From contig JAUHYR010000023.1 in the NCBI GenBank assembly GCA_030426475.1, positions 1 to 35,092 on the forward strand: a stretch of 35,092 nt of DNA. The letters run 5' to 3'. The notes beneath the pieces are model-generated. The model had not been told where the DNA came from and did not search any database. It saw only the letters and a list, made by a program, of their open reading frames with translations. The stretch is from Bacteroidia bacterium. Lineage in GTDB: Bacteria; Bacteroidota; Bacteroidia; Flavobacteriales_E; Vicingaceae. Below, one piece after another: positions 31,761 through 33,677 of this stretch. Numbering within the stretch: position 1 is the stretch's first letter; each line of letters opens with the position of its first letter. The translations under genes and the position numbers were made by a program.

Positions 31761-31792
31761 TAAAGATAACTAAAGCCCTTATTGTTGCAAAA
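31761..31792 (-). promoter_or_regulatory. Candidate internal promoter for the ChaN-family gene
   Basis: On the minus strand TTTTG (31792-31788) is followed by exactly 19 bases and then TATCTTTA (31768-31761), one base from TAnnTTTG. The -33 part lies in the last codons of arsC. Predicted start is about 13 bases before ATG 31743. Confidence 0.4.
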
Positions 31793-32168
31793 GTTCCTTT
31801 ACTTTTTTCTCAATCAAATCTCTAACTTTATTAAATTCATCCGGCTCCATTGCTTTAGGGTCAGGAATATCCCAATCTAATCTTTGCTTAGCTGGAACGA
31901 ACGGACACTTTTCTCCACAACCCATGCTTACTACATAATCGTAAGTAATTTGTGGAATTTCATCTAAAGAAGTGGATTTGTGTTTAGATAAATCATAACC
32001 GATTTCGTTCATGGCTTTTATGGCTCTTGGGTTAACTACTCCGCTTGCTTTTGAGCCTGCACTATATGCGTCAGCTACATCGCTACCGTGAATTTTTGCA
32101 AATGCTTCAGCCATTTGACTCCTGTTTGAGTTTTCAATGCAAACAAACAATAGCTTCTTTTTTTCCAT
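31779..32168 (-). CDS. arsC: Arsenate reductase, low-molecular-weight phosphatase fold (thioredoxin-type ArsC)
   Basis: This enzyme reduces arsenate to arsenite, which the neighbouring channel could then let out. The P-loop is FVCIENSNRSQMAEAF (Cys10 and Arg16), the LMW protein tyrosine phosphatase signature. The two further redox cysteines of the pI258 ArsC relay are present as Cys84 and Cys88 (SMGCGEKCPF), and the acid DWDIPDP follows near 98. The pI258 pair is spaced by six residues, against three here. The length of 129 residues is typical. It is the fourth gene of the ars operon, two bases after the aquaporin stop. Confidence 0.92.
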   Translation of the reverse strand: MEKKKLLFVCIENSNRSQMAEAFAKIHGSDVADAYSAGSKASGVVNPRAIKAMNEIGYDLSKHKSTSLDEIPQITYDYVVSMGCGEKCPFVPAKQRLDWDIPDPKAMEPDEFNKVRDLIEKKVKELLQQ

Positions 32169-32170
32169 AT

Positions 32171-32863
32171 CTAATTTTCTATCGGATTACATTTTTGATT
32201 AGGTAATGTACAACAATCCTTTTTGTAAACACCCCAACATGTAATTACACTAAAACTTGCTCCTAAAAGTGTGCTAACAACATACAGCCAAAGCGTGTCC
32301 ATGTTTCCTGAAACTACCGCAGGGGCAATGGAACGAGCCGGATTCATAGAAGCGCCTGTGTATGGCCCACCAAAGTAGGCTTCTAAAAAAACTACTCCAC
32401 CAATTGCGATGGCAGAAAAAGCCAAACTCCTGTTTTTGTAAAGTGTATTTAAGATAACTAATACCAAAATAAGGGTCATAAAAGCCTCTATGATAAAAGC
32501 TTCTCTTAAGTCAACAGAAGGCAGAGTTGCTCCAAGATTTTCATGACTTGGGAAAAATAAAAGCAATAAAAAACTTGCTAAAAATGCTCCGGTCAATTGG
32601 GCAAAAATATAAGGTATTATATGTTTTTTAGGTAGCCTTCCCGAAAACCACAAAGCAACTGTAACAGCAGGATTGATGTGTGCTCCTGAAATTTTTCCAA
32701 AGGCAAAAATCATTAGCGTTACAATGCCTCCAAAGGCAATGGAAACACCCAAGTGTGTGACAATACCATTGTATTCATCATTTAATACAATTGCTCCGGT
32801 GCCTATTAGCACTAAAGCAAAAGTGCCAATAAATTCCGCTATATATTTTTTATAGTCTTTCAC
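32171..32863 (-). CDS. MIP-family aquaporin/aquaglyceroporin in ars operon (AqpS-like)
   Basis: This 230-residue inner-membrane channel has six helices and both pore motifs: ISGAHINPAVTVALW and TGASMNPARSIAPAVV. By hand alignment with E. coli AqpZ, the selectivity positions Phe43/His174/Thr183/Arg189 become Phe/Ala/Ala/Arg. That is a wider filter than a strict water channel and compatible with uncharged As(OH)3 or glycerol. The probable cytoplasmic tail reads KKDCCTLPNQKC. Location between arsR and arsC parallels Sinorhizobium meliloti arsR-aqpS-arsC, where AqpS releases arsenite made by ArsC. No ATG exists at the 5' end; GTG 32863, two bases after the upstream stop, fits best, though TTG 32875 is possible. 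Confidence 0.88.
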   Translation of the reverse strand: MKDYKKYIAEFIGTFALVLIGTGAIVLNDEYNGIVTHLGVSIAFGGIVTLMIFAFGKISGAHINPAVTVALWFSGRLPKKHIIPYIFAQLTGAFLASFLLLLFFPSHENLGATLPSVDLREAFIIEAFMTLILVLVILNTLYKNRSLAFSAIAIGGVVFLEAYFGGPYTGASMNPARSIAPAVVSGNMDTLWLYVVSTLLGASFSVITCWGVYKKDCCTLPNQKCNPIEN

Positions 32864-32865
32864 TT

Positions 32866-33336
32866 TTAGCAACAACCACTATCAGGAGAGCAACAACTTC
32901 CTTGTGTGGTTAATTCTGATAGTTTTATTTTTTTCTTTTGAACCGGAACACCACAGTTGTCTTTAGCTAAACAATCTGTTTGTTTGGAAGTAAGCATAAA
33001 TGTATTGAAGTCAAATTCTAACCCATATTTTCCAATGGTATCTGTTTGATATTCTACTTCAATTTCAAGGTCTTCCAAACCTATTTGTTGCTCACTAAGT
33101 TCAATAATTTTAATCAGCTTTTCGGCAGAAAGTCTATGGTCAACATCATCGGCACTCCATAACTGGAAGTTAGCTACTTTTTCTTCTCTAATAGTTCCGC
33201 CACAATCAATAAACTTTTTATTAATCATACCTACTTCAGTTACATGAAAATGTGGAGGAACTTTATTTCCTTGACTATCTATAATAGTTATCTCGTTGAG
33301 ATTTTTTAGGTGATTTTTTAATTCTGATATTTTCAT
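32866..33336 (-). CDS. DUF6428-family protein with Cys-rich C terminus
   Basis: This 156-residue soluble protein resembles the DUF6428 family, which I recall as a neighbour of arsR in Bacteroidota; no activity is known to me. The body has LPPHFHVTEVG-like histidines (PPHFHVTEVGMINKKFIDCG) and QLWSADDVDHRLSAEKL. The tail holds most of the cysteines: DCLAKDNCGVP and then GSCCSPDSGCC at the extreme C terminus. That pattern suggests thiol binding of arsenite or another soft metal, as an inference. The start ATG 33336 (MKISELKNHL) lies 11 bases after the arsR stop; a TTG at 33357 would overlap arsR and adds nothing recognisable. Confidence 0.8.
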   Translation of the reverse strand: MKISELKNHLKNLNEITIIDSQGNKVPPHFHVTEVGMINKKFIDCGGTIREEKVANFQLWSADDVDHRLSAEKLIKIIELSEQQIGLEDLEIEVEYQTDTIGKYGLEFDFNTFMLTSKQTDCLAKDNCGVPVQKKKIKLSELTTQGSCCSPDSGCC

Positions 33337-33347
33337 AATGGTTGTTT

Positions 33348-33677
33348 TTAACAGCAATATTTGCTTTTAGTTTTTTGCTCAAAAAAGGACGAAAACATTT
33401 CGCTTATTTCTTGCCATGTTTTTTCATTAATGCAATAACAAACGCTTGTACCTTCAATAGTTCCTTTAATGATGCCTATGTTTTTTAATTCTTTTAAATG
33501 TTGTGAAACGGTGGGTTGTGCCAAACCAATTTCATCTACCAAATCACCACATACACAACCTTCTTTTTTTAAGAGATGCTGAATGATAGCAATACGGGCA
33601 GGATGCCCCAAAGCTTTTGCTAATAGAGCCATCTTGTTTTGATTTTTGGTAAATATTTCTGTTTTGGTAATACCCAT
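33348..33677 (-). CDS. arsR: ArsR-family metalloregulatory repressor
   Basis: This is a 109-residue winged-helix repressor that would leave DNA when it binds As(III). It has LAKALGHPARIAIIQHLLKK, the recognition helix GLAQPTVSQHLKELKNIGII and the wing GTIEGTSVCYCI. The helix-3 thiol site of the E. coli-type sensor is visible as Cys-Val-Cys in EGCVCGDLV. Extra cysteines occur in the wing (VCYC) and as a terminal CC. It is the first gene of the operon. A near-palindromic operator at 33684-33699 overlaps its own predicted -7 region, which would give autoregulation. Confidence 0.93.
   Translation of the reverse strand: MGITKTEIFTKNQNKMALLAKALGHPARIAIIQHLLKKEGCVCGDLVDEIGLAQPTVSQHLKELKNIGIIKGTIEGTSVCYCINEKTWQEISEMFSSFFEQKTKSKYCC

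Follow-up and report, generated by a model that had tools for sequence, protein, structure and literature searches.

The final 4 kb of the window, by which we mean the whole 35,092-nucleotide stretch of Bacteroidia bacterium DNA analyzed here, carries on the minus strand a closely packed arsenic operon with the order arsR, DUF6428 gene, aquaporin gene and arsC, in which gene ends lie near the following starts. An earlier note on this DNA had reported that the first three products, whose folds are unrelated, bear vicinal cysteine pairs at their C termini, and had proposed that arsenite is handed along these tails from ArsC to the channel. The locus raises the question of whether such tails are a genuine property of arsenic proteins and what they might do. 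The ArsR repressor (33348..33677, minus strand, 109 aa) ends SKYCC, with KYCC encoded at 33351-33362, and has further cysteines at positions 41, 43, 80 and 82. The DUF6428 protein (32866..33336, minus strand, 156 aa, PF20001) ends GSCCSPDSGCC, its tail CCSPDSGCC (residues 148-156) being encoded at 32869-32895, and both termini were found just where the note had placed them. The aquaporin (32171..32863, minus strand, PF00230; stop at 32171, probable GTG start at 32863, maximal ORF to 32875) has the C-terminal sequence CWGVYKKDCCTLPNQKCNPIEN, in which the reported vicinal pair is present but lies 12 residues before the end and is not terminal; its cysteines follow the pattern CX7CCX6C, formed by Cys213, CC221-222 and Cys229 in the numbering of the maximal ORF. 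ArsC, an LMW-PTP/thioredoxin-type arsenate reductase (31779..32168, minus strand, PF01451), has the Cys84/Cys88 pair described in the note as well as Cys10, and no cysteine tail. The window contains 36 ORFs of 100 aa or longer; of these, only ArsR, DUF6428, the aquaporin and one probably spurious ORF had a CC within the last 20 residues.

The window ArsR has the winged helix-turn-helix of the ArsR family, with scores above the cut-offs of NF033788 (71.8 bits against 55) and HTH_5 (44.6 against 22). The DUF6428 protein matched PF20001, its sole Pfam match, over its full length at 209 bits against a cut-off of 28.7. ArsC matched PF01451 (LMWPc) at 76.9 bits, and its Cys10 and Cys84/88 redox pair are those of the thioredoxin-type enzymes; its matches to NF010053 and TIGR02691 fell below the NCBIfam equivalog cut-offs.

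We then compared the tails across Bacteroidota using DUF6428 loci fetched with ~5 kb per side and 80 named loci, with genomes seen twice collapsed by identical protein. At these ~200 loci, 199 of 202 distinct DUF6428 proteins and 191 of 211 distinct ArsR ended exactly in CC, as did 23 of 25 ArsM from related loci. The background set comprised 1346 other ORFs, each 150 aa or longer, from related loci and outside the modelled ars families; only six of them had this end, and five of the six proved on inspection to be ars-operon proteins. The note's reading depended on the tails recurring in close relatives, and this was borne out for ArsR and DUF6428, whose tails are near-invariant and co-occur across Bacteroidota, whereas the aquaporin tail turned out to be patchy. 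None of the 120 ACR3 and none of the 184 ArsC-type proteins at DUF6428 loci ended in CC, and the 21-kDa ArsC-like protein of related loci was likewise without a CC tail. A dependence of the ArsR tail on DUF6428 was rejected since 15 of 17 ArsR at loci without DUF6428 still ended in CC; the ArsM tail was also kept at such loci. Within ArsR, Cys41 was conserved in 211 of 211 relatives, Cys82 in 210 and the terminal pair in ~96%, and in the 14 surveyed genomes that had ArsR-family paralogues elsewhere the tail was absent from these except in members of the ars-type clade.

The tail is specific to arsenic proteins. When 390 Bacteroidota genomes were scanned at the DNA level for C-x-P-x-x-x-C-C-TAA, an unbiased search that required no gene family, every gene-size ORF among the hits read, which are a strong sample rather than a full census, was DUF6428, ArsM or one ArsI/CadI-family enzyme (NF041414, 130 bits against a cut-off of 116), and the remaining hits read had no ORF or one of at most 20 codons. 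Similarly, an HMM built from 184 DUF6428 tails and run against 9356 ORFs found only ArsM outside DUF6428 at E<1. Two of these ArsM (L219, 3e-7; L216, 1e-5) also share the linker KPKxxLSELQ with DUF6428, and since the match covers both tail and linker, an exchange or a common origin of this module between ArsM and DUF6428 is likely from the sequences. Bacteroidota ArsM, arsenosugar-type ArsM and ArsI/CadI end in C-x-P-G-S-G-C-C or in GGGCC, tails of the kind seen on DUF6428, although they have unrelated folds and enzymatic functions. The window's own genome encodes an arsenosugar-type ArsM (NF038099, 567 bits; L384 1222-2193, G000:C121) that ends GGGCC, on a contig other than that of the ars operon. 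At an ars locus elsewhere (L297 6588-6887), a thioredoxin-like protein beside a tail-less ArsR ends NSGCCSQENCC; its homologues at L032 and L291 are without a tail.

DUF6428 received no mention and no function in the literature searched, and a PDB sequence search gave no match. Of 395 Bacteroidota genomes, 96 contained the family, as did 19 of 46 from the order to which the window belongs, and the DUF6428 gene lay within 250 bp behind arsR at 180 of 211 loci, with ACR3 at 120 of the loci and an ArsC-like protein at most. An alignment of 63 diverse members showed that H31, T33, E34, D44, C45, G46, Q58, E95, C122, C155 and C156 are invariant. The terminal pair was kept at identities down to 19% and in a divergent branch that has lost the linker, and the entropy at C155/C156 was 0 as compared to a core mean of 2.0 bits. 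In a structure model the core had a mean pLDDT of 84.6, most of residues 1-120 being above 90, and residues ~145-156 were disordered, with a tail pLDDT below 50. Fold searches returned nothing usable (best Foldseek E, 0.03; best VIA-align Z, 2.4), a result that does not by itself establish a new fold. The core constellation of H31, E34, D44, C45, Q58, E95 and C122, for which no fold match accounts, has the look of an active or structured site more than of a mere carrier, and this counts against the carrier reading proposed below.

An arsenite-binding role for the tails would fit two known proteins, as the C-terminal peptide of AfArsR binds As(III) and ArsD has a similar double CC. AfArsR of Acidithiobacillus ferrooxidans binds As(III) in an AsS3 site through a C-terminal CC-x5-C peptide, and the free peptide NCCHGTRDC passes from a random coil to an ordered state when its three cysteines bind As(III) (PMC11212059). 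Because of this behavior, the disordered tail in the DUF6428 model would suit a flexible binding arm. The window ArsR resembles AfArsR in being an ArsR-family repressor with vicinal cysteines in a flexible C-terminal segment; unlike AfArsR, it has the terminal CC alone, with no third cysteine in the tail and hence no CC-x5-C, together with Cys41-x-Cys43 at the classical inducer-site position and Cys80-x-Cys82.

We infer that each tail is a short and flexible arm with several thiols, which binds As(III) in the service of its own protein's job, with DUF6428 as a buffer or carrier accessory, and we favor this explanation with moderate confidence. Arsenite would be produced by ArsC. In ArsR, the terminal CC, probably together with Cys41/43 or Cys80/82, would form or complete the inducer site, at which As(III) would release the operon. 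DUF6428 would be a cytosolic As(III)-binding accessory whose C-x5-CC tail catches the arsenite made by ArsC and whose conserved core (Cys45, Cys122 and their neighbors) receives or presents it, perhaps to an exporter. It may thereby serve as an As(III) buffer or carrier where an operon has neither ArsD nor ArsA and relies on ACR3 or an aquaporin for export. ArsM and ArsI/CadI would collect their substrate with the same kind of arm, and the window aquaporin would be the exit, its own tail being an optional extra. The mercuric reductase MerA offers a parallel, since its flexible C-terminal cysteine pair catches a toxic metal and hands it to the core; it differs in handling Hg(II) and in being a single enzyme.

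More tentatively, the peptide itself, a KxxLSELQ linker followed by C-x-P-G-S-G-C-C, could be a transferable As(III)-binding tag common to unrelated arsenic proteins, such that arsenite moves by thiol exchange within the tagged pool and DUF6428 is a new carrier replacing ArsD; we see this as possible but would not expect it. If it holds, a C-terminal CC within an operon would mark arsenic proteins, and the question would arise of how free arsenite is kept low between reduction and export without ArsD and ArsA. Such a mark already flags an unnamed membrane protein of ~189 aa, which was seen always at ars loci, ended in CC in four of four cases (L246 3421-3990, L315 3412-3981, L115 4405-4980 and L064 8613-9176), and had no Pfam match over the cut-off and no NCBIfam match. 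C-terminal vicinal cysteines were already known in ArsD and AfArsR. Within the literature searched, two points are new: that DUF6428 is a regular member of ars operons and has an invariant tail, and that one tail module is common to unrelated arsenic protein families. DUF6428 occurs very commonly in Bacteroidota arsenic operons, and its invariant tail, shared with ArsM and ArsI/CadI and in kind with ArsD, suggests a testable role in As(III) handling.

The comparison with ArsD, an arsenite metallochaperone and repressor (PF06953), bears on whether DUF6428 acts in transport or in regulation. Like the window DUF6428, ArsD carries a double pair spaced CC-x5-CC and is encoded behind arsR in an arsenic operon; six Bacteroidota ArsD that we read ended SCCSGKSCC, SCCSGRSCC or SCCSTGCCC. 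Unlike ArsD, DUF6428 has no N-terminal CC-x4-C chaperone site (Cys12-Cys13-Cys18), there being no cysteine before Cys45 in the window protein, and no ArsA partner. Homology between the two was rejected (hhalign probability 3%, no PF06953 match). The earlier note's remark that ArsD is missing here held for the other DUF6428 loci searched, at which the single weak ArsD match was a thioredoxin-like protein. No convincing ArsA was found at these loci either (one weak match, E=3e-4), nor was an ArsA gene present in the window operon. ArsD exceeded the cut-off in 67 of 390 genomes, of which three also had DUF6428 against ~16 expected (Fisher p 4e-6), an avoidance that phylogeny can largely explain because most ArsD genomes belong to one family. 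In the three genomes with both, the genes were on different contigs. In ArsD of R773, the vicinal C-terminal pairs Cys112-113 and Cys119-120 have been tied to metalloid sensing and repression, and the metallochaperone function to Cys12, Cys13 and Cys18 (PMC4562236). A CC tail alone is therefore no evidence for a chaperone, as the note had cast DUF6428; what remains of that proposal is a possible carrier or buffer, given that DUF6428 takes ArsD's place behind arsR and that no ArsD was found at its loci. DUF6428 could instead be an ArsD-like co-regulator that senses As(III) and adjusts operon expression jointly with ArsR, since the position directly behind arsR is that of arsD in arsRDABC and the R773 pairs have been linked to regulation. 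DUF6428 has, however, no visible DNA-binding motif, no homology to ArsD and no Pfam match but PF20001, and we consider this role unlikely.

We give about the same low credence to a purely redox function, in which the pairs would be dithiol/disulfide couples that feed electrons to ArsC or ArsM in the manner of the C-terminal pairs of thioredoxin reductase, with no arsenic carried. A vicinal CC is able to form a disulfide, ArsC of the window type requires dithiol reduction, and the tailed protein at L297 is thioredoxin-like. This function is hard to reconcile with ArsR, which has no redox chemistry to feed and is nevertheless tailed almost throughout, and the three-thiol C-x5-CC spacing is closer to that of As(III) sites than to a redox pair.

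As(III)-binding arms, as favored above, leave the aquaporin to be accounted for. The window protein matched PF00230 at 175 bits, has the MIP fold with two NPA motifs, and carries F-A-A-R at the selectivity positions; F-A-A-R and W-A-A-R predominated in the filters of ars-linked aquaporins, both lacking the His and Thr of aquaporin Z. By its sequence, it would qualify as an arsenite-conducting MIP channel, and such transport is predicted. Its six hydrophobic segments, combined with the usual MIP topology, would place the tail probably in the cytoplasm. No match to ACR3 or ArsB was found in the window's genome (assembly ~98% complete), so that the aquaporin is the only recognized arsenite exit there. 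In this it resembles, by description, AqpS, the ars-operon aquaglyceroporin of Sinorhizobium, where a MIP channel replaces ArsB/ACR3 beside arsC and arsR; among the ars-linked aquaporins here, a CC tail is an extra on only some.

The absence of ACR3 and ArsB matches favors the directed relay of the earlier note, in which the DUF6428 tail would take arsenite from ArsC and deliver it, through thiol exchange, to the aquaporin's CC tail. So do five loci (the window, L157, L246, L284 and L315) at which ArsR, DUF6428 and aquaporin are all CC-tailed, and a tree of 73 aquaporins (tail columns kept, the window row long-branched) on which the trait requires at least three changes and may have arisen repeatedly. 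However, these five were the only tailed ones among the 27 same-strand aquaporins at DUF6428 loci, three of the 27 loci being second sightings of one genome, and a general CC tail on ars-operon aquaporins was rejected on this count. Moreover, the same tail was found on Flavobacteriaceae aquaporins (L354-L383), where all of the best 30 relatives ended in SCKLVKDxxCC or a close variant and none had a same-strand ars gene within 1.5 kb. The tail, rare in ars loci and conserved on these lone aquaporins, is thus genuine but characterizes one aquaporin lineage rather than ars operons in general. Because As(OH)3 diffuses, a channel can also do without metal being handed to it. Since ArsC, ACR3 and most ars aquaporins are tail-less, and the ArsR and ArsM tails persist without DUF6428, the relay lacks support and we think it quite improbable. 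In most of six neighborhoods examined, the Flavobacteriaceae aquaporin adjoined a DUF2911-like gene, named from its sequence; in Winogradskyella flava and strain ALC-1, ars genes lay between that gene and the aquaporin.

That the tails arose by chance, or that their cysteine codons serve translation coupling or attenuation with the residues irrelevant, is scarcely credible and was rejected: the tight packing of the operon would allow it, but all four TGT/TGC combinations occur, the tails are retained across differing gene orders and absent from non-ars neighbors, and the background and window ORF counts given above speak against it.

Some further genes recurred in the DUF6428 neighborhoods. 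At L045 (4312-4956) and at 134 of the 211 DUF6428 loci, a protein of 200-220 aa resembles ArsC and matches LMWPc only weakly, below the cut-off; it is apparently a divergent arsenate reductase. Metallophosphoesterase genes, sometimes as a tandem pair, were seen in DUF6428 ars operons at L085 (7373-8110), L240 (6574-8085) and L242 (2782-3558). On the small Empedobacter falsenii plasmid p1681-tetX (L241), an operon with the order arsR, DUF6428, phosphatase and ACR3 lies ~300 bp from tet(X).
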